NCBI GenBank assembly: GCA_016213625.1
Contig: JACQZZ010000106.1
Coordinates: 62,001 to 126,000, forward strand
Source: Actinomycetota bacterium
GTDB lineage: Bacteria; Actinomycetota; Acidimicrobiia; Acidimicrobiales; Ilumatobacteraceae
DNA length: 64,000 nucleotides
Direction of reading: 5' to 3'
Shown here: positions 1 through 8,588 of the stretch, piece by piece
Layout of the letters: each line of letters starts with the position of its first letter
How positions within the stretch are numbered: position 1 is the stretch's first letter
The notes under the pieces: generated by a model
What the model saw: the letters and a program-made list of their open reading frames with translations, nothing else
Told to the model about the DNA's origin: nothing
The model's database searches: none
Position numbers and translations under genes: made by a program

Positions 1-41
1 CGTGATGTGGGGTGCGTGTCCTTGATGCGAGGGGAGGGACC

Positions 42-1310
42 ATGGCCGCACAGTGCACGAGCGTCGTTGCACACATCGCCGTCGACCATTCGTTGCCCCA
101 CGCACTCGTCGACGACGTGTTGGGGCCGGATGTCGACGTGGCGTTCGCTGCGGCGGATCGTCTGGCCGCATGGGTCGAGGCCCAGCGCCTGCGGCTCGTC
201 GCAGCGGTGCGCACCGAGGGGCGTTCGCCGCTCGAGTTGGTGAACGGTCAGTCGCCGCACGCCACGACGGCGTCGCTGGCGCGAGTCGAGCGACGAGCCG
301 ACGTCGGCGCACTGTTCCCGTCGTTCGTCACGTCGCTGGAGCGCGGTGAGTCGTCGGTGTCGCACCTCGATCGGCTGGGCGAGGCGTTGCGGCGCCTGCT
401 CCCGCACGAGCGCGACCAACTCGCCGGCGACGCCGCTCATCTGCTGACCATTGCCACTGCGGTGAGTGCCGCCCGGTTCGGGCGTCATCTCGCCCGCGAG
501 GTCGCGCCGCTCGAACGGATCCGACCTGTCCCCGATGATGCGACCGGATCCGACGATCCCGCCGAGGCGCGACTCGCGGCCCAGCAGGTCGGCATCCGGC
601 TCACCTCACACACGGATCGCGACACGGGAATGGCCGTCTACCGATTGGCGCTCGATCCGTTGCGTACGATCTCGTTCGAGCAACGATTGTCCGCCATGGT
701 CGAGGCCCTCCATCATGGGCCACCCATTCCTGGCTGCCCCGTCGATCCGGTGGAACGACAGTCGTTTCTCCGTGCCCACGCGCTGCTCCTGATGCTCGAC
801 GGGCAGGGCGGCAACCGTCGCGGTGGTGCCGAGGTGATCGTCGTGATCGACCACACCGTTCCCGACGACGAACCCGATGTCGATTGGGGCCAGCCGGTCG
901 ACATCCCGCAGCGCGTCCTGGACGAGTTGCTCGGGGCACCGACCACGAAGGTGATCGAGGTGGCCGTCCGCAATGGCGTCGTCATCGCTGCGCCCGGCGA
1001 GCTCGACCTCGGGCGTTCCACGCGCCTGGCCAATCGCGCCCAACGACGAGCACTCCGCGCCCTGTACCGCGGCTGCGGCGTTCCGGGCTGCGACGTCGGG
1101 TTCGACCGGTGCACCATCCACCACGTCATCTGGTGGCGACACGGTGGCGGTACCGATCTGCAGAACTTGATCCCCTTGTGCGGCCGTCACCACCACCTGG
1201 TGCACGACCGCGGCTGGCAGCTTCGCCTCGGCGCTCACCGGGAACTCTCCGTCACCACACCGTCCGGACGGGTGATGACCACCGGGCCGCCCCGGCGGTG
1301 GGCCGCCTGA
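42..1310 (+). CDS. DUF222-type protein with C-terminal HNH nuclease domain
   Basis: Predicted 422-aa protein. The C-terminal 70 residues carry an HNH-nuclease arrangement: a CxxxxC pair (CGVPGC), then TIHHVIWW, GGTDLQNLIPLC and HHHLVH, which supply the His-Asn-His metal site. The helical N-terminal region resembles DUF222, a combination often found in many copies in actinobacterial genomes. The ATG at 42 is preferred over an in-frame GTG at 12 because GGGGAGGGA at 31-39 is a good ribosome binding site for it. The biological role of the family is unsettled; nuclease activity is inferred from the motif only. It converges on the acyltransferase gene at 1386. Confidence 0.8.
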   Translation: MAAQCTSVVAHIAVDHSLPHALVDDVLGPDVDVAFAAADRLAAWVEAQRLRLVAAVRTEGRSPLELVNGQSPHATTASLARVERRADVGALFPSFVTSLERGESSVSHLDRLGEALRRLLPHERDQLAGDAAHLLTIATAVSAARFGRHLAREVAPLERIRPVPDDATGSDDPAEARLAAQQVGIRLTSHTDRDTGMAVYRLALDPLRTISFEQRLSAMVEALHHGPPIPGCPVDPVERQSFLRAHALLLMLDGQGGNRRGGAEVIVVIDHTVPDDEPDVDWGQPVDIPQRVLDELLGAPTTKVIEVAVRNGVVIAAPGELDLGRSTRLANRAQRRALRALYRGCGVPGCDVGFDRCTIHHVIWWRHGGGTDLQNLIPLCGRHHHLVHDRGWQLRLGAHRELSVTTPSGRVMTTGPPRRWAA

Positions 1311-1385: not shown

Positions 1386-2402
1386 TCAGCCGAGGTCGGG
1401 CCAGCGGCGCTGTTGGCGACGGCGCTGGCCGGCCTTGCCGAGCTTGCGGTGCTCGGCGAGGGCCCACTGGCGGCGCCAGCTGTTGTGCTCGGGGCCGGTG
1501 AGCTTCGGGTTGGTACCCGCGGCGGATCGCACGCGAGCCGTCCAGAAGTCGGTGAGCGCCTCGTCGCCGAGCGCCGTCACGGCGGCTTCGATGCGGGCGT
1601 TGAAGCGGCGGGTGTTCTCGCCCTCCTGCGGCCACAGCGGGGCACCGAAGACCACCTTCGTGCTGCCGGGCTTGGGGCGCTTCATGCCCTTGCCGTAGAT
1701 GCTGCCCGTGCCGTCGATGAACACCGGCACCACCGGCGCACCGGTGCGGCCGGCGAGGTACGCGGCACCGCCCTTGAACTCCTGGCCCCAACCATCGGGG
1801 GAGCGACCGCCCTCGGGGTAGATCACCAGGCTCCAGCCGGTGTCGATGAGTCGACGCAGTTCGTCGCTGCTCTTGCGGGTGGTCACCTCGCGCTCGATGG
1901 GGAACGCGTTCAGCGCCAGCGCGGCCAGGTTGCCCTTCATCCGCTTGTCGAAGAAGTAGTCGGCCGCGGCGGCGACCACCAGGTGCTTGCGGAACTCCTC
2001 GGGCACGGTGGCGATGATGAGCGGTGTGTCCACGTGGCTGTGGTGGTTGGGGGCGAAGATCACCGCGGGCACTGGATCCAGTTCCAGCAGATCGGCCAAC
2101 CGATCGAGCCCTTCCACCTCGGGGTTCGCCAACGCCTTCACCATCGCGGCCATGGGGCCGCGCACGATGACGGTGCGTGCGGCGCGTGCGGGCGCCTTGC
2201 GTGCCCAGGCGGTGTCGAAGTCGGCGCCAAGGGTGCTCTTCTCGGCCGGCATCACCACACCCTTGGGGCGTGAGGGCTTGCGATAGGGGAAGCCGAGGTT
2301 GCGCGCCGGACGGAGCGCGGCCTGCATGGCCGAACTCGCGGCGTCGCCCACCCGGGCGACCTTGCGCAATTGCGCGACCGAGACCGTGCGCTTGTCGCTC
2401 AC
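1386..2402 (-). CDS. PlsC-family 1-acylglycerol-3-phosphate acyltransferase-like protein
   Basis: 338-aa lysophospholipid acyltransferase-like protein. The catalytic NHxxxxD box is NHHSHVD (residues 119-125) and the glycerophosphate-binding box is EGGRS (197-201), followed by a PVVPVFIDG segment typical of PlsC. An N-terminal extension of about 75 residues precedes the domain, longer than in minimal PlsC enzymes. The family transfers an acyl chain from acyl-CoA or acyl-ACP to a lysophospholipid or other alcohol. The start is GTG at 2402, overlapping the upstream stop by 4 nt (GTGA), so this is the last gene of a translationally coupled operon. The acceptor here is unknown; an unusual lipid headgroup or alcohol is possible given the neighbours. 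Confidence 0.85.
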   Translation of the reverse strand: MSDKRTVSVAQLRKVARVGDAASSAMQAALRPARNLGFPYRKPSRPKGVVMPAEKSTLGADFDTAWARKAPARAARTVIVRGPMAAMVKALANPEVEGLDRLADLLELDPVPAVIFAPNHHSHVDTPLIIATVPEEFRKHLVVAAAADYFFDKRMKGNLAALALNAFPIEREVTTRKSSDELRRLIDTGWSLVIYPEGGRSPDGWGQEFKGGAAYLAGRTGAPVVPVFIDGTGSIYGKGMKRPKPGSTKVVFGAPLWPQEGENTRRFNARIEAAVTALGDEALTDFWTARVRSAAGTNPKLTGPEHNSWRRQWALAEHRKLGKAGQRRRQQRRWPDLG

Positions 2403-3988
2403 TGGACGTCGGCCACCAGCAGCGAGGGCACGTGGAGGTGCGAGATGGTGGGGGTGCGGCCAACGACGTCGCTGGCGATCTCGAAGGCGTCGTCCAGCGT
2501 GGACGCAGGCGTGAAGCCCAGACGGCGCACGGTCGGTGCATCACCGCCGACGATGATCACCTTGCCGGCGTGTTGCTGGCCGTGTGCACCCCAATACCAC
2601 GCGTAGAACGGGTGCACGCCGTGGTAGGCGTTGCCGGTGCGGTACAGGTGGCGGTACCACTCGTCCTCGGCGAACTGCTTCTCCCACTTCTGGCCCATCA
2701 CCACGGGGTCGGTGGTGTCGGGCAGCACCTGCTCGAAGAAGTCGATGTAGCTCGGGTGGTGCACGGGGTTGAAGTCGCGGTAGGTGGGGTGGGTCATGAT
2801 GATCACGCCACCTTCACGCACCAGCGGCTTGTTGCGGTACATGTTGAACAGGTACCCGAGGCCCATGCACATCACCAGCACGGGGTTCATCACGCTGTCG
2901 GGGTTGTAGGGCGACACGAACGGGATGCCCAGCGTGAGGATGTCGGTCTGCCCCTCCACCGGCACGAGCTGCTGCTCGAACACCTTGGCCAGGGTGAGCT
3001 CGTGCACCGCCGATGTCTCACCGGCCTGCACGCTGGTCATCTGGTGCGGGCTGTGGATGTCGTGGAACATCTTGCGGCGAGCCTTCACTGGCAACAGGCT
3101 GAGGCCCTTGCTCACACCGAGGTACGTGGCGCGGTCCTTGGCGGTCCATTCCCACTCGCGCTTGTTGATGAACGCGTACTGCTCGGGGAACATGTCGGTG
3201 TTCAGCGTCGACTCGATCTGGAACACCTTCGGGCCGTGGTCGCGCAGCACCTTGCCCAGGCGCCAGATGCTGGTGTGCAGCGCGGAGTGCTCGCGGTGGC
3301 CCATGAGGCTCTTGGTGTTCTGCAGCGTCTCGCCGTTGTGGTGATGGCTGAGGCACTTGTAGCTGGCGAGGCCGGTGGTGATGCTCTTCCACCCACCGTC
3401 CATGCTGACCGAGTTGATGTTGACGTAGATGACCAGGTCGCTGTCGGCCGCCCGCTTGTTGATCTCCAGCACCTCGCCGTGCGGGGTGGTGCCGATGACG
3501 GTGAGGTTGTCGTAGTCCTCCGCGTCGTGCTGGTACAGCATGCCGCGCGGGTGGAACGCGTCGTAGACACGGTCGCCCAGGGCGTGGCGCAGTTCGTACT
3601 CGTGCATCCGCCGGTGAAGGCCCAGCGCAGCGATGATGTGCACGTCGTCGACACCGGCGGCGGCCACGAGATCCAGCACCGCTTCGATGACGCGCTGGCG
3701 GATGTCGGGGCGGCGCATCTTCGGCAGCGGCAGGCTCACGTCGTCGAACGCGATGGTGAGCTTCATGCCGGGGAACAGCAGCGCGGGCAGCGGGTCCTGG
3801 TCGTGCGGGTTCAGCAAGGCATGGCGGATGGCGCCGTCGATGTCCTTGATGGCGGGTAGCGGCTCGGGCGGGTAGATCACTCGGCTGCGACCGGCGGGCA
3901 GCTTCTCGAGGGAGAAGTTCTCGCCGCGCCAGAACAGCACCGGCGGGGTGGAACGGTCGACCTCGTGGACGAATCCGGGACGGCCCAT
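2399..3988 (-). CDS. LarA-like (DUF2088) protein with altered active site
   Basis: 529-aa protein whose N-terminal half resembles LarA, the nickel-pincer-dependent lactate racemase (DUF2088). Residues 122-127 (LGLHRR) match the LarA GTHRP box with its catalytic His (H125). GGWKS at 198-202 matches the GGRK box whose Lys anchors the pincer cofactor (K201). The second catalytic His that normally precedes this box is not visible; the aligned stretch is YVNINSVSMD. LarA homologues racemise or epimerise 2-hydroxyacids, but the substrate here cannot be read from sequence. No larB/larC/larE cofactor genes are present in the window. It overlaps the neighbours on both sides by 4 nt. Family membership is fairly sure; activity is not. 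Confidence 0.72.
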   Translation of the reverse strand: MGRPGFVHEVDRSTPPVLFWRGENFSLEKLPAGRSRVIYPPEPLPAIKDIDGAIRHALLNPHDQDPLPALLFPGMKLTIAFDDVSLPLPKMRRPDIRQRVIEAVLDLVAAAGVDDVHIIAALGLHRRMHEYELRHALGDRVYDAFHPRGMLYQHDAEDYDNLTVIGTTPHGEVLEINKRAADSDLVIYVNINSVSMDGGWKSITTGLASYKCLSHHHNGETLQNTKSLMGHREHSALHTSIWRLGKVLRDHGPKVFQIESTLNTDMFPEQYAFINKREWEWTAKDRATYLGVSKGLSLLPVKARRKMFHDIHSPHQMTSVQAGETSAVHELTLAKVFEQQLVPVEGQTDILTLGIPFVSPYNPDSVMNPVLVMCMGLGYLFNMYRNKPLVREGGVIIMTHPTYRDFNPVHHPSYIDFFEQVLPDTTDPVVMGQKWEKQFAEDEWYRHLYRTGNAYHGVHPFYAWYWGAHGQQHAGKVIIVGGDAPTVRRLGFTPASTLDDAFEIASDVVGRTPTISHLHVPSLLVADVQ

Positions 3989-5148
3989 CAGTGACTCCTC
4001 TGATCGTCAGAACGCATGTCGAAGGCGATCTTCACCGCACCCCGACGGCCTGCCTGGGCGGCATGACCGATGGCGTCGGTGTAGTCCTTCAGCGAATAGG
4101 TGGCCGACACCATGCGGCCGAGGTCGAACCGACGCACCACCTCGATGGCGGTGTCGAAGTCGGGTCGGGTGTAGGCGTAGCAACCACGAATGGCGGTCTC
4201 GCGGTGCCACAGCGACGTGAGCTCGAGCGACACGTTGCCGGGCATGCCCACCACTTGCACCTCGCCACCGGGCGCCACCACCTGCAGCGCCTGCTGCAGC
4301 GACTGGCTGCTGCCCACGCAGTCGATGACGTGCGGTGCGCCGCAGGTGAGTTGGTCGCCGAACACCAGCGAGCTGGTGGCCGAACGGACCCAGCGGGGCA
4401 GTTCGTCGGTGCCGCACACGATGTCGGCGCCCAGTTCCTTGGCCAGACGCTTCTGCTCGGGGTAGCGGGCGGTCACGACGATGGGGCCGGTGCGCTCGCG
4501 GTCGCGGGTGGCCGTGATGGCAGCGAGCGTCAGCAGGCCCAGTGTGCCGGCGCCGATGATGACCGTCTCGCGGCCGGTGTACCGAGCGGCAGCATGCACC
4601 GCGCAGGCGGTGGGCTCGATGAGCACGGCCGCTTCGTCCGAGAGATCGTCGGGTACCGCGACCAGCTGGCTCGGGTGCGCCACCATCTCGTGGCTCCACC
4701 CGCCGCCGGTGTCGGCGCAGAACCCGGTCTGCAGTCCCGGCTCGAGGTGACCGAAGGCGACGCGCTCGCACAGGTGGATGGCGCCGGCCTCGCAGGCGTG
4801 GCACACGGGCGAGATGCCGCGAGTGATGCACGACAGCACGGGCACGAGTACCACACGCTGGTCGGTGCCCTCCACGTTGGCCACCACCTCGTGGCCCGGC
4901 GTGAACGGGTAGCTCACCAACGGGTCGAAGTACGCCGCGGCGGTGCCGTCCACCAGCGACAGGTCGCTGCCGCAGATCCCGGCCAGGCGCGGGCGCAGGC
5001 GTACCCAGTCGGGTGCGGGCAGGGGAAGCGACTCGTCGGGTTCCAACGAGAGCGGTCCCACCGATGCGCCTCGACCGGGCATCAGCGTGCCGGCCAGGCG
5101 AGCGGCGGCGAAGCGTGCCGGCTTGCGGGAGAACACCAGGCGGCTCAT
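3988..5148 (-). CDS. Zinc-dependent medium-chain alcohol dehydrogenase
   Basis: 386-aa MDR-superfamily dehydrogenase. The catalytic zinc ligands lie in GICGSD (Cys) and PGHEVV (His-Glu). The structural-zinc cysteines are in the stretch from CITRG to HLCER (C-x9-C-x2-C-x7-C). The Rossmann glycine motif VIIGAGTLGLL follows at mid-protein. Such enzymes oxidise or reduce alcohols/aldehydes or sugar alcohols with NAD(P). It is the second gene of the operon: its ATG overlaps the stop of the acyl-CoA reductase/HAD gene and its own stop overlaps the LarA-like start (ATGA both times). The context suggests it acts on a product of those enzymes, but the substrate is not assignable. Confidence 0.85.
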   Translation of the reverse strand: MSRLVFSRKPARFAAARLAGTLMPGRGASVGPLSLEPDESLPLPAPDWVRLRPRLAGICGSDLSLVDGTAAAYFDPLVSYPFTPGHEVVANVEGTDQRVVLVPVLSCITRGISPVCHACEAGAIHLCERVAFGHLEPGLQTGFCADTGGGWSHEMVAHPSQLVAVPDDLSDEAAVLIEPTACAVHAAARYTGRETVIIGAGTLGLLTLAAITATRDRERTGPIVVTARYPEQKRLAKELGADIVCGTDELPRWVRSATSSLVFGDQLTCGAPHVIDCVGSSQSLQQALQVVAPGGEVQVVGMPGNVSLELTSLWHRETAIRGCYAYTRPDFDTAIEVVRRFDLGRMVSATYSLKDYTDAIGHAAQAGRRGAVKIAFDMRSDDQRSH

Positions 5149-7502
5149 CGCGATCCCTCGAACTGGCGTCGGCGTTCACGCTCGCTGAGCATGTTGCCCA
5201 GCGGCAGTACCTTGGTGGGTGCACCGGATGCCTTCTCCCAGTTCTCCACCAGCCAGCCGCGCTTGCGGGCGATGGCGGCGAGGCGGGTCTCCGGGTTCAC
5301 CGCCACCGGGAAGCCAACGGCTTCCAGCATGGGCAGGTCGCTGCTGGAGTCGGCATAGGCGATGCTCTCCTCGAGCTTCAGCCCCTCGGCCTCGCAGTAG
5401 TCGGCCAGGATCTGGGCGCGGGTCTCGCCGGTGGGCGGCACCACGCTGAGGTTGCCGCTGTACGTGCCGTCGGGCCGCACGCTCATCTCGGCGGCCACGA
5501 TCTCGTCGAACAGGGGCCGTAGCCCCTCGACGGCGAAGCTGAGCGCACCCGTGATGAGCACCGTGCGATGGCCGAGGGCGCGGTGCTCGCGTACGCGGCG
5601 CAGGCCAGCGGGGAACGACTTGGTGAGGATGAGCTGGGCCAGCAGCTCCTTCGAGTCCTCGGCGATCTGCTCCACGGGGGCGTCCTCGTAGCGGCGATAG
5701 AAGAACCGCAGGAAGTCGGCCCGGTCCTTGCGGTCGATCGAGCTGAGCGTGGGTGCTTCGGCCAGGGTGCGCACCACGTAGCGCACGCGCTCGGGCATGT
5801 TCAGGCGGCGGGTGGCGAGGAACGAGTAGCTCTCCACCACGTTGCTGGCGATGAGCGTGTTCTCGAGGTCGAACGCTGCGAGGTGTCGATCGGGGGAGAG
5901 CACCGAGCGGCGCAACCGCGCCTCCCGGTCCACCTTGTTCTTGCCGGGCTTCGTCTTCGCCCGAGAGTGGTGCACGATGGACGGCAGGTGGATGGTGCTG
6001 ATGTACGTGGGCCAGTCGACGCTCGTGGGGTCGAAGTTGAACGCCGCCTGATCCTCGGGCGACAGCGATGCCCACATCTCCATCAACCGGTCGACCTGGT
6101 AGATCGCCTCGCACTCGGTGTACAGGCCGTACAGCAGTACGTACTCGTACGCCCGGTCGATCTCGTTCTTCTTCTCCTCAAGCGACGCGGCCCATGCCGC
6201 CTGCTTGCCGCGCAGGGGCAGCGCCTGCAGCACCTTCTCGGTGCGCTCGGCGATCTGCTTGGCTCGCTGCAGTTGTTCCTTCACCCGGCCGCGTGCGGGG
6301 AACTGCCACTCGGGCACCACGATCGGTTGGCCCTCTTCGTCGTACAGCGGGTGCTCGGTGAACCAGGCGCGCACGTTGTCGACGAGCGTCTTGTACTTCA
6401 GCGGGTTGATGCCGCCGCTGGCCACCTGGGTGATGGGTGCGGCCTTCTCCGGGCCGAGCGCGGCGACGGCGATGATGGCCGACACCACGATGTCGACCGG
6501 GATGACGTCGACCGTGCCCTCAGGGACGCCGGGGAACTCCTTCAGCAGCCCGCGGGCGTAGCTGAGGATGACCGGCTCGGCCATGCGGAAGCCGCGGATC
6601 CAGCCGGGGAACGGCTCGGCGAGTGCGCTCTCGATGATGCTCGGGCGGACGATGCTGACCGGCACTTTGCCCTTCACCTCGGTGACGGCCTGCTCGCCGA
6701 GCGCCTTGGTGAACGCGTACGCGTCGGGCCAGCCGACGCTGGCGGCGCGGGCACGGCCGGCCTCCACGAGTTGCGCCTTCACCCACGCGAGGCGAAGGTG
6801 CTCGGTCTTCGACGCGAGGGCGGGTGCGCCGGCGGCACCGAGCTCCTGGCGGGCCTCGGCGCGGAACTTGGCCAGCTGTTCGGGGTGGCGGCTGGCTGCT
6901 TCGGTGTCGCCGCGCAGGCGACGAGTGGCTGCGACTTCCTTGCGCCAGTCGAGGCCGATGTCCCACGGCCCCTGGCTCACGAGCATCTCGGGGGCGTTGC
7001 CGCGGCGGTTGCCGGCGACATAGCAGGTGCTCACCGATACCAGGTGCGGCGTGACGTTCAGTGCGTTCAGCGTGTCGGCGATGCGCGGCGGGCCGAGCAG
7101 GTTGATCTCCACCGCCAGGTCGAGCGGGCTGTCGAAGCTGACGGCCGCCGCCGAGTGGATGATGGTGTGGCACGTGGAGAACAGCGCACGGTCGGTGTCG
7201 TTCAGGCCCAAGCCGTCGGTGCTGACATCGCCGCCGATGCAGGTGACACGGCGCAGGATCATCTCGTCGAAGGTCTCGCCGCCCGCGTCCGCCAGCTCCT
7301 GCTTCAGACGGTCGAAGGCGTTGTTCTTGAAGATCTCGCGGCGGGCGCGCTCGGTGGCGTCGTGGCGCTTGCTGGGCCGGATGAGGAGCACGAGCTCGCA
7401 CCCCGGGACGCCGCGCAGCAGCCGTTCCACGAGCGCCGTGCCCACGAAACCGGTGCTGCCGGTGATGGCGATGCGTTTCCCTGCGAGCTGTTCCGCGATC
7501 AT
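5145..7502 (-). CDS. Fatty acyl-CoA reductase-like SDR fused to HAD-IB phosphatase-like domain
   Basis: 785-aa two-domain protein. Residues 1 to about 420 are an extended SDR of the male-sterility/fatty acyl-CoA reductase type: TGSTGFVG (14-21) for the dinucleotide, an STCYVAG segment near 158, and the catalytic YAFTK (Y262, K266). Residues from about 540 form a HAD-IB (phosphoserine phosphatase-like) domain. Motif I reads DLENT (545-549) where DxDxT is usual, motif II is ITGA, and motif IV is DSSSD (718-722). The reductase half probably makes a fatty aldehyde or alcohol from acyl-CoA; the role of the phosphatase-like half is unknown. This is the first gene of the operon, 11 bp from a palindromic operator. 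No Shine-Dalgarno is visible, so the transcript may have a very short leader. Confidence 0.82.
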   Translation of the reverse strand: MIAEQLAGKRIAITGSTGFVGTALVERLLRGVPGCELVLLIRPSKRHDATERARREIFKNNAFDRLKQELADAGGETFDEMILRRVTCIGGDVSTDGLGLNDTDRALFSTCHTIIHSAAAVSFDSPLDLAVEINLLGPPRIADTLNALNVTPHLVSVSTCYVAGNRRGNAPEMLVSQGPWDIGLDWRKEVAATRRLRGDTEAASRHPEQLAKFRAEARQELGAAGAPALASKTEHLRLAWVKAQLVEAGRARAASVGWPDAYAFTKALGEQAVTEVKGKVPVSIVRPSIIESALAEPFPGWIRGFRMAEPVILSYARGLLKEFPGVPEGTVDVIPVDIVVSAIIAVAALGPEKAAPITQVASGGINPLKYKTLVDNVRAWFTEHPLYDEEGQPIVVPEWQFPARGRVKEQLQRAKQIAERTEKVLQALPLRGKQAAWAASLEEKKNEIDRAYEYVLLYGLYTECEAIYQVDRLMEMWASLSPEDQAAFNFDPTSVDWPTYISTIHLPSIVHHSRAKTKPGKNKVDREARLRRSVLSPDRHLAAFDLENTLIASNVVESYSFLATRRLNMPERVRYVVRTLAEAPTLSSIDRKDRADFLRFFYRRYEDAPVEQIAEDSKELLAQLILTKSFPAGLRRVREHRALGHRTVLITGALSFAVEGLRPLFDEIVAAEMSVRPDGTYSGNLSVVPPTGETRAQILADYCEAEGLKLEESIAYADSSSDLPMLEAVGFPVAVNPETRLAAIARKRGWLVENWEKASGAPTKVLPLGNMLSERERRRQFEGSR

Positions 7503-7513
7503 GCGGGCGTTAG

Positions 7514-7529
7514 TCTACCATTTGGTAGA
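7514..7529. promoter_or_regulatory. Perfect 16-bp palindrome, probable TetR operator
   Basis: The sequence is TCTACCA-TT-TGGTAGA, two perfect 7-bp arms with a 2-bp centre. It lies in the 44-bp gap between the reductase/HAD gene (start 7502, minus) and the divergent TetR gene (start 7547, plus). It is AT-richer than its surroundings. Its position fits autorepression and repression of the four-gene operon. The assignment is inferred from symmetry and location. Confidence 0.7.
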
Positions 7530-7546
7530 GAGATGCTGGAACACGG

Positions 7547-8149
7547 ATGACACGGAAGTCCTCGACACGCGAACGCATCCTGGATGCCGCCACCGATCTG
7601 TTCGGTTTGCGCGGTGTGGAGGCCGTGTCGATCGAAGTCATCGCCGCCGAGGTGGGGGTGGCCAAGCAGACGTTGCTGTACTGGTTCCCCAGCAAGGACG
7701 ACCTGGTGCAGGCCGTGTTGGAAGCGGCCGTGCTGGAACTGTCGGTGGGGGTGGAGGCCGCCATCCGCGCCACCACCGACGACCCGCTCGACCGCATCGA
7801 TGCCGTGGTGAAGGCGGTCTTCCGTCAGGCGGTGCGGCGGCCCGCACTGCTGGGCCTGGTGCGCGAGATCTCGCGGCTGTCGCCGGCCAGCGGCGATCAC
7901 CTGCACGACGCGTTCGAACCCCTGGTGCAGCGGGCCATCGGCTATCTGCGTCGCGAGATGGCACTCGGCCGCCTGCGTCAGGCCGACCCGCGCCTCATCG
8001 CCGCGCTGGTGTACGCCACCGTCACCGGCATCGCCACCGAACCGGAGGCGCTGCGAGCCGTCGGCTGGCAGCCCACCACCTCCGACCTGCGCCGCCTGCG
8101 CACCGAGTTGCTGGCCTTCCTCCGCGCCGCGCTCGCCCCGCCACCCTGA
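7547..8149 (+). CDS. TetR/AcrR family transcriptional regulator
   Basis: 200-aa regulator. The N-terminal helix-turn-helix domain is clear: TRERILDAATDLF, then SIEVIAAEVGVAKQTLLYWF, the usual TetR recognition-helix pattern ending in YWF. The remainder is the variable ligand-binding and dimerisation domain. It is transcribed divergently from the reductase/HAD-ADH-LarA-like-acyltransferase operon, and a perfect palindrome lies 17 bp upstream of its ATG. The simplest inference is local repression relieved by a lipid-like ligand such as an acyl-CoA. The ligand is not predictable from sequence. The downstream arr gene begins 26 bp after its stop and may be cotranscribed. Confidence 0.9.
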   Translation: MTRKSSTRERILDAATDLFGLRGVEAVSIEVIAAEVGVAKQTLLYWFPSKDDLVQAVLEAAVLELSVGVEAAIRATTDDPLDRIDAVVKAVFRQAVRRPALLGLVREISRLSPASGDHLHDAFEPLVQRAIGYLRREMALGRLRQADPRLIAALVYATVTGIATEPEALRAVGWQPTTSDLRRLRTELLAFLRAALAPPP

Positions 8150-8174
8150 TCGGAAAATGGGGCAGCATGGTGAC

Positions 8175-8588
8175 ATGCAGGCTGCACCGTTCGAGGTTCC
8201 CACCATCTACTTCCACGGCACTCGGGCCGCGCTGGGCGCGGGCGACATGCTCGGGCCCGGGTTCCGGTCGAACTTCGGGTCGGGTCGCGACGCCAACCAC
8301 GTGTACTTCACCGCCACGCTCGACGCAGCGGTGTGGGGAGCCGAACTCGCGGTGGGCGACGGGCCGGGCCGCATCTACCTCGTCGAACCCACGGGCGAGT
8401 TCGAGGACGACCCGAACCTCACCGACAAGAAGTTCCCCGGCAACCCCACGAGGTCGTACCGATCGAAAGAGCCCGTGCGCGTGATCGGTGAGCTGTGGGA
8501 ATGGGTGGGTCATCCGCCGGAGGTGCTGCAAGCGATGAAGGACAACGTCGCCAAGCTGGCCGCCGAGGGCGTGGAGGCCGACGACTGA
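8175..8588 (+). CDS. arr: NAD+-rifampin ADP-ribosyltransferase (Arr)
   Basis: 137-aa Arr enzyme, which ADP-ribosylates the C23 hydroxyl of rifampin and inactivates the drug. The match covers the whole protein: FHGT near residue 14, NHVYFTATLDAAVWGAELA at 41-59, RIYLVEPTG, EDDPNLTDKK at 77-86, PGNPTRSYRS and VGHPPE. The expected catalytic His (H14), Tyr (Y44) and the EDDPN Asp are present. The ATG at 8175 gives the length usual for the family; an upstream ATG at 8157 would add six residues. It may be cotranscribed with the TetR gene 26 bp upstream. It lies in ordinary chromosomal context with no mobile element nearby, so it is probably native rather than recently acquired. Confidence 0.93.
   Translation: MQAAPFEVPTIYFHGTRAALGAGDMLGPGFRSNFGSGRDANHVYFTATLDAAVWGAELAVGDGPGRIYLVEPTGEFEDDPNLTDKKFPGNPTRSYRSKEPVRVIGELWEWVGHPPEVLQAMKDNVAKLAAEGVEADD

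Follow-up and report, generated by a model that had tools for sequence, protein, structure and literature searches.

In myxobacteria, the elb genes, which include those for a fatty acyl-CoA reductase (FAR), a HAD protein and an acyltransferase, form alkyl ethers, and the available part of the report describes one of their products, ElbC, only as of unknown function (PMC9131029). In LarA, Arg75 binds both the phosphate of the nickel-pincer nucleotide (NPN) cofactor and the carboxylate of the substrate. Groups 14 and 15 of the LarA homologues are reported, in the available part of one study, to have no equivalent of the second catalytic histidine, His174 (PMC12611868), and the one such protein tested in print, LarAH14 of Frankia, was inactive in seven hydroxyacid assays according to the available part of another (PMC7583248). 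Here we describe a locus in a 64,000-nucleotide (nt) stretch of an Actinomycetota genome of the family Ilumatobacteraceae (contig JACQZZ010000106.1, positions 62,001 to 126,000; hereafter the window), in which four open reading frames (ORFs) on the minus strand, spanning 7502-1386, encode a fusion of FAR and HAD domains (FAR-HAD), an alcohol dehydrogenase (ADH), a LarAH14-type LarA homologue and a PlsC-type acyltransferase, with a TetR gene running divergently from them (Table 1). An earlier note on this DNA had proposed this four-gene set; the ORFs are real and, in profile searches, the family assignments hold.

In a phylum-wide profile search of 296 genomes, we found matches to NF052592 (the LarAH14/15/16 family) in 135 genomes, 72 of them over the curated cut-off. 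When the same genomes were searched with a FAR-HAD profile (threshold E ≤ 1e-40), 78 were found to encode FAR-HAD, including all 72 with LarAH14 over the cut-off. Four of the six remaining genomes (G094, G137, G140 and G292) hold partial NF052592 matches of 150-592 bits. The other two (G040 and G256) gave no LarAH14 match, and their FAR-HAD contigs end inside the ADH match or 233 nt after it, so that the absence of LarAH14 there is not established. The co-occurrence has a Fisher P value of 2e-62, which treats genomes as independent and is indicative only. In one genome (G064), FAR-HAD and LarAH14 lie on different contigs, both well inside them, yet both are retained. FAR-HAD and LarAH14 are near-perfect co-occurring partners.

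Around the LarA genes of 30 loci (from the best 30 of the 72 over-cut-off genomes; each is a short stretch of about 4.5 kb, and some stop at the end of a contig), we found ADH in 30/30, PlsC in 28/30 and the end of FAR-HAD in 27/30, so the arrangement is not a matter of chance. A contig scan gave at least 570 relatives, of which the best 80 were kept; their record titles are mostly Acidimicrobiia, Ilumatobacteraceae or plain Actinomycetota, and we take the few titles that name other taxa (Acidobacteria, Bifidobacterium) to be mislabels. Among the 52 of these best 80 loci that have room on both sides, 45 carry TetR, FAR-HAD, ADH, LarA and PlsC in this order, and three carry the same order without a TetR match. 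The order FAR-HAD, ADH, LarA, PlsC also holds in other classes of the phylum, where any TetR homologue found is on the PlsC side. The gene order thus recurs in distant actinobacterial genomes, including outside the class of the window, and is not peculiar to this strain, as the earlier note had allowed that it might be. The four genes are a deeply conserved operon and almost certainly a real functional unit.

We propose, with a probability of roughly 0.4, that the four genes, under TetR control, direct the synthesis of a membrane lipid of the glycerolipid type that carries a chain derived from a fatty aldehyde or fatty alcohol and is most likely of the alkyl-ether type. That the product is a glycerolipid with a fatty-alcohol-derived part has about even odds, and an ether bond in it is a more tentative proposal, somewhat unlikely when taken by itself. 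The chemical steps and the product are ones that we infer. FAR would yield a fatty aldehyde or alcohol by reducing an activated fatty acid; LarAH14, loaded with NPN, would carry out a hydride transfer on this product, which has no carboxylate, or on the adduct that it forms with an acceptor resembling glycerol phosphate; the ADH, of the polyol/ketose type, would adjust a backbone carbonyl; PlsC (PlsY in some relatives) would add an acyl chain; and the HAD domain would move or remove phosphate. The LarA step, in exactly this form, is improbable. An ether-type glycerolipid leads as the product because FAR, PlsC or PlsY, and HAD together resemble the elb set, and because of the lipids of Rubrobacter. 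Lipids of the 1-O-alkyl glycerol type are abundant in Rubrobacter species, and work of Sinninghe Damste and colleagues from 2023 reportedly describes a putative operon for ether lipids common to five species in which mixed ether/ester lipids are plentiful. Two genomes that we take to be Rubrobacter (G041 and G011) carry FAR-HAD, ADH and LarAH14 (in G041 at C1:2,134,867-2,141,910), and none of the three PF02913 proteins in each has the AGPS-like HHHG motif.

In FAR-HAD, the FAR part (approximately residues 1-510; 7502-5973) is an N-terminal NADPH-type fatty acyl-CoA/ACP reductase and is followed by a C-terminal HAD-IB domain (approximately residues 540-785; 5885-5145). Pfam scores are 185.7 bits for NAD_binding_4, 36.3 for Sterile (cut-off 35.4) and 92.1 for HAD. 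The nearest sequence in the PDB is the fatty acyl-CoA reductase 7eoz (1e-59), and an AlphaFold model (pLDDT 85) also has 7eoz, which is rice DPW, as its nearest fold, while its HAD part resembles 3fvv. DPW is a fatty acyl-ACP reductase. The FAR motifs TGxxGFxG and YxxxK are present, with Y262 and K266 kept in 91/91 distinct homologues. The HAD nucleophile D545 and the motif IV acids D718 and D722 are likewise kept in 91/91, and motif I reads DLENT, departing from the DxDx[TV] of HAD phosphatases. The ADH resembles ketose, sorbitol and threonine dehydrogenases (nearest in the PDB is the ketose reductase 1e3j, 2e-21). Its catalytic-zinc residues C59, H86 and E87 are conserved in 90/90 distinct homologues and E178 in 89/90; the four structural-zinc cysteines are all present in 47/90 and lost together in 43/90, which divides the ADHs into two classes.

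The LarA homologue scores 854.4 bits against NF052592 (cut-off 740), covers profile positions 1-520 of 520 and keeps the two-domain LarA fold. The NPN-site residues D72, K184 and H200 and the first catalytic histidine, H108, are kept as D83, K201, H217 and H125, and all four are invariant among 105 distinct homologues. When the protein is aligned with L. plantarum LarA, the equivalent of His174 is deleted and that of Arg75 is Leu86, a position that holds Leu in 102 of the homologues, Ile in two and Cys in one. Having neither a second catalytic histidine nor a carboxylate-binding arginine, LarAH14 is probably no ordinary 2-hydroxyacid racemase. The earlier note had suggested that the operon builds or modifies a lipid carrying a hydroxyacid or a fatty alcohol; the enzymes do fit lipid synthesis, and it is the hydroxyacid half of that suggestion that these residues make doubtful. 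In its fullest form, this reading would have LarAH14 invert or otherwise process a 2-hydroxyacid, either a 2-hydroxylated fatty acid or a small acid of the head group, which FAR and PlsC would then carry on to a lipid bearing a diol or a hydroxyacid. The retained fold and most cofactor residues are consistent with this, as are the NCBIfam name of the family (NPN-dependent hydroxyacid isomerase) and a sister group (L057 and L058; 38-39% identical) that adjoins a class III CoA-transferase, which would suit hydroxyacyl-CoA chemistry there; moreover, all LarA homologues of known activity act on 2-hydroxyacids, according to the available parts of two reports (PMC7583248, PMC11770544). We nevertheless consider a hydroxyacid lipid unlikely, given the deletion at His174, the replacement of Arg75 in 105/105 homologues and the inactivity of the Frankia protein. 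Another Lar_N match, a very distant one (25.1 bits; L002 / L202, contig C22), lies elsewhere in the genome of the window, near an FAD-oxidase_C gene and in a setting unlike that of the operon.

The genome of the window encodes LarB, LarC and LarE outside the operon. In three loci of one family (L047, L048 and L065), FAR-HAD, ADH, LarA, PlsC, LarE, LarB and LarC follow one another on one strand, and in a locus of another family (L042), LarE (on the opposite strand), LarB and LarC lie beside PlsC. Thus larE, larB and larC are next to the operon in 4/28 of the LarAH14 loci fetched by place, our own locus counted, and in 0/80 of the contig-scan loci. LarC is present in 62/72 LarAH14 genomes versus 128/224 of the others. 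The LarC tblastn matches in L047, L048 and L065 are partial (approximately residues 4-239 or 102-239 of 396), perhaps because LarC is split or frameshifted there, a form known from L. plantarum.

Several observations weigh against an ether-type glycerolipid made by these four enzymes with NPN. At the second acidic position of HAD motif I, Glu is found in 80/91 distinct homologues and Asp in 11/91, and a HAD domain with a DxE motif I may not be an ordinary phosphatase. Four of the 52 well-covered loci have no ADH between FAR-HAD and LarA, and in the seven fetched loci of a family that we call f24, tblastn found no PlsC homologue nearby; ADH and PlsC are therefore not strictly required. PlsY and PlsC could instead serve ordinary phospholipid synthesis. 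The idea of an ether leans on the reported work on Rubrobacter lipids and on our taking two genomes for Rubrobacter, and an AGPS-like gene that the window's genome carries on a different contig offers another possible route to ethers. Finally, among the ten LarAH14 genomes without LarC, LarB is present in three (G162, G265 and G283) and absent in seven: four operon-bearing genomes that are 91-98% complete (G260, G287, G105 and G083) have no LarC, LarB or LarE over cut-off, and three that are 81-84% complete (G180, G212 and G159) have no LarC or LarB over cut-off. NPN use is thus perhaps not universal; in the first four, either LarA works without NPN, or NPN comes from another source, or the assemblies have gaps.

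These seven genomes are also the observation that favours a LarAH14 that has given up NPN and serves as a LarA-fold protein with a different function, such as the binding or transfer of an intermediate. This is improbable, because the NPN-site residues are invariant, every one of them being retained also in L062 and L063, loci of two genomes without cofactor genes, and because four loci have NPN genes within the operon or next to it. In most hosts, if not all, LarAH14 is likely to use NPN.

For an NPN-loaded LarAH14 within an ether-type pathway, one specific possibility, admittedly a long shot, is an ether-forming enzyme that works by hydrogen borrowing. NPN would take a hydride from the fatty alcohol, or from the hemiacetal that this alcohol forms with an acceptor of the glycerol-phosphate type, and would return it to the resulting carbonyl or oxocarbenium, giving the alkyl ether. 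Such a mechanism would explain the loss of both the second histidine and the carboxylate-binding arginine, the strict pairing with FAR and the PlsC or PlsY neighbours. If true, it would be the first NPN reaction other than the isomerisation of hydroxyacids, and bacteria would have a route to ether lipids that tolerates oxygen and does without AGPS. LarAH14 is an orphan nickel-pincer group for which all published tests are negative, and its tie to an obligate FAR-HAD partner and to glycerolipid acyltransferases narrows the search for its substrate to fatty aldehydes, alcohols and lipid phosphates. If its role in making lipids is borne out, nickel-pincer chemistry would reach into this area of biosynthesis, and one could test directly how aerobic actinobacteria come by their unusual membrane lipids.

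The 44-nt region between the TetR gene and FAR-HAD holds the palindrome CTACCATTTGGTAG. A TetR homologue runs divergently from FAR-HAD, at most 600 nt away, in 64 loci (the window's copy, L075, included). Among 62 distinct intergenic regions of relatives (the window excluded), TACC-N2..8-GGTA is present in 60 and the stricter TACCA-NN-TGGTA in 57; mononucleotide shuffles lead one to expect an operator-like palindrome in 0.4 of 64 regions. CTACCATTTGGTAG is a predicted operator to which TetR would bind. TetR control beside lipid enzymes would also fit an inducible response, in which ADH and FAR would turn the fatty alcohols, aldehydes and acids freed from membrane lipids into one another and PlsC would re-esterify them, and ADHs of the medium-chain dehydrogenase/reductase (MDR) type are often catabolic. 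Such salvage or detoxification is quite improbable, however, since FAR-type reductases run reductively and the strict pairing with LarAH14, with its occasional linkage to cofactor genes, suggests a dedicated pathway. A longer palindrome, with TACCACTTGGTA inside it, is found between a pair of divergent genes elsewhere in the same genome (L230 1489-1513, contig C21); the gene to its left looks TetR-like by eye, and the palindrome is probably that other regulator's own site.

The PlsC-type protein has the lysophosphatidic acid (LPA) acyltransferase 5kym as its nearest relative in the PDB (1e-9), and its HX4D and EGxR motifs are intact, with H120, D125, E197 and R200 kept in 76/76 distinct homologues. 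In 3/7 of the fetched f24 loci (L054, L056 and L072), PlsY, a glycerol-3-phosphate acyltransferase, abuts or precedes FAR-HAD. Although FAR plus an acyltransferase is the minimal logic of wax-ester synthesis, storage of wax esters or fatty alcohols, with FAR making the alcohol and the acyltransferase esterifying it, is very improbable, because the acyltransferase is PlsC-like and not of the WS/DGAT type, PlsY takes its place beside FAR-HAD in some relatives, and a nickel-pincer enzyme would have no role. In the same seven f24 loci, LarA can be parted from the other genes by inserted ones, and in three loci of the family, protoglobin genes (PF11563) lie between ADH and LarA (L051 11803-12393, L052 12666-13322 and L073 6677-7267).

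The earlier note had described a 4-nt overlap at every junction and had concluded that the products should be made in fixed proportion. The 4-nt overlap is there between FAR-HAD and ADH (ATGA) and between LarA and PlsC (GTGA), but ADH and LarA overlap by only 1 nt (TGATG), and overlaps do not imply a fixed proportion of products. In relatives (duplicate genomes dropped; spacings approximate, because start codons were chosen by closeness to the start in the window), the commonest spacing is a 4-nt overlap for FAR-HAD/ADH (60/87), a 1-nt overlap for ADH/LarA (43/89) and a gap of 0-30 nt for LarA/PlsC (47/88, with the 4-nt overlap in 21/88). Directly after the TetR gene lies a homologue of the rifampin ADP-ribosyltransferase Arr-ms (8157-8588, plus strand; PF12120, 163.9 bits), and beside the other end of the operon is a gene (12-1310, plus strand) for a 432-aa protein with a C-terminal HNH endonuclease domain.

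Table 1. Features of the operon and its divergent regulator, in positions of the window.
Feature	Positions	Strand	Details
FAR-HAD fusion	5145..7502	-	785 aa; NAD_binding_4 + Sterile + HAD
Zn-dependent medium-chain ADH	3988..5148	-	386 aa; ADH_N + ADH_zinc_N
LarAH14-type LarA homologue, presumed NPN enzyme	2399..3988	-	529 aa; Lar_N / LarAH14-15-16
PlsC-type acyltransferase	1386..2402	-	338 aa, GTG start; PF01553 67.2 bits
Palindromic operator-like site CTACCATTTGGTAG	7515..7528	.	between operon and divergent TetR gene
Divergent TetR-family regulator	7547..8149	+	200 aa; TetR_N 53.9 bits

The families of these genes are known; we did not find their combination, the obligate partnership or the operator described in the literature searched. 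That literature included no paper describing the operon, and Table S1 of PMC7583248 (neighbouring COGs per group) and the 2023 Rubrobacter paper may hold parts of it. With the myxobacterial elb cluster (ElbA-E) and MXAN_1676-1674, the operon has in common a FAR-like domain, a HAD protein (ElbB) and a PlsC-like acyltransferase; according to the available part of the report, elb has an acyl-CoA synthetase, acyl carrier protein (ACP) domains and epimerase-type reductases (PMC9131029), where our operon has instead an MDR-type ADH and LarAH14. None of the four operon genes encodes an acyl-CoA synthetase, an ACP or an epimerase-type protein; homologues of ElbD (FAR-ACS-ACP-AT) and ElbE elsewhere in the genome were not sought. 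The putative 1-O-alkyl glycerol phosphate operon of Rubrobacterales may correspond to the present one. With the peroxisomal ether-lipid pathway (FAR1, GNPAT, AGPS), the operon shares FAR and a glycerolipid acyltransferase and, unlike that pathway, it contains no AGPS gene. AGPS-like proteins bearing the HHHG motif are encoded in 2/6 operon-bearing genomes examined; the genome of the window encodes an AGPS-like FAD enzyme (L209 1483-3081, contig C9; best PDB match alkyl-dihydroxyacetone phosphate synthase 4bby, 2e-45) and a second AGPS-like protein with the HHHG motif (L206, contig C81). The single-histidine LarA enzymes LarA_Sp and LarA_Bw (9q3k, 9q3j) have Asn at His174 and Lys at Arg75, and carbohydrate metabolism is suggested for them in the available part of their report (PMC12611868), whereas here the His174 stretch is deleted, Leu stands at Arg75 and the setting points to lipids. 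With the LarAH14/15/16 family, which includes the Frankia LarAH14, our protein shares membership over the cut-off, the fold and the loss of a His174 equivalent; to what is known of that family, we add its operon context, its partnership with FAR-HAD, the operator-like site and the linkage to NPN genes.

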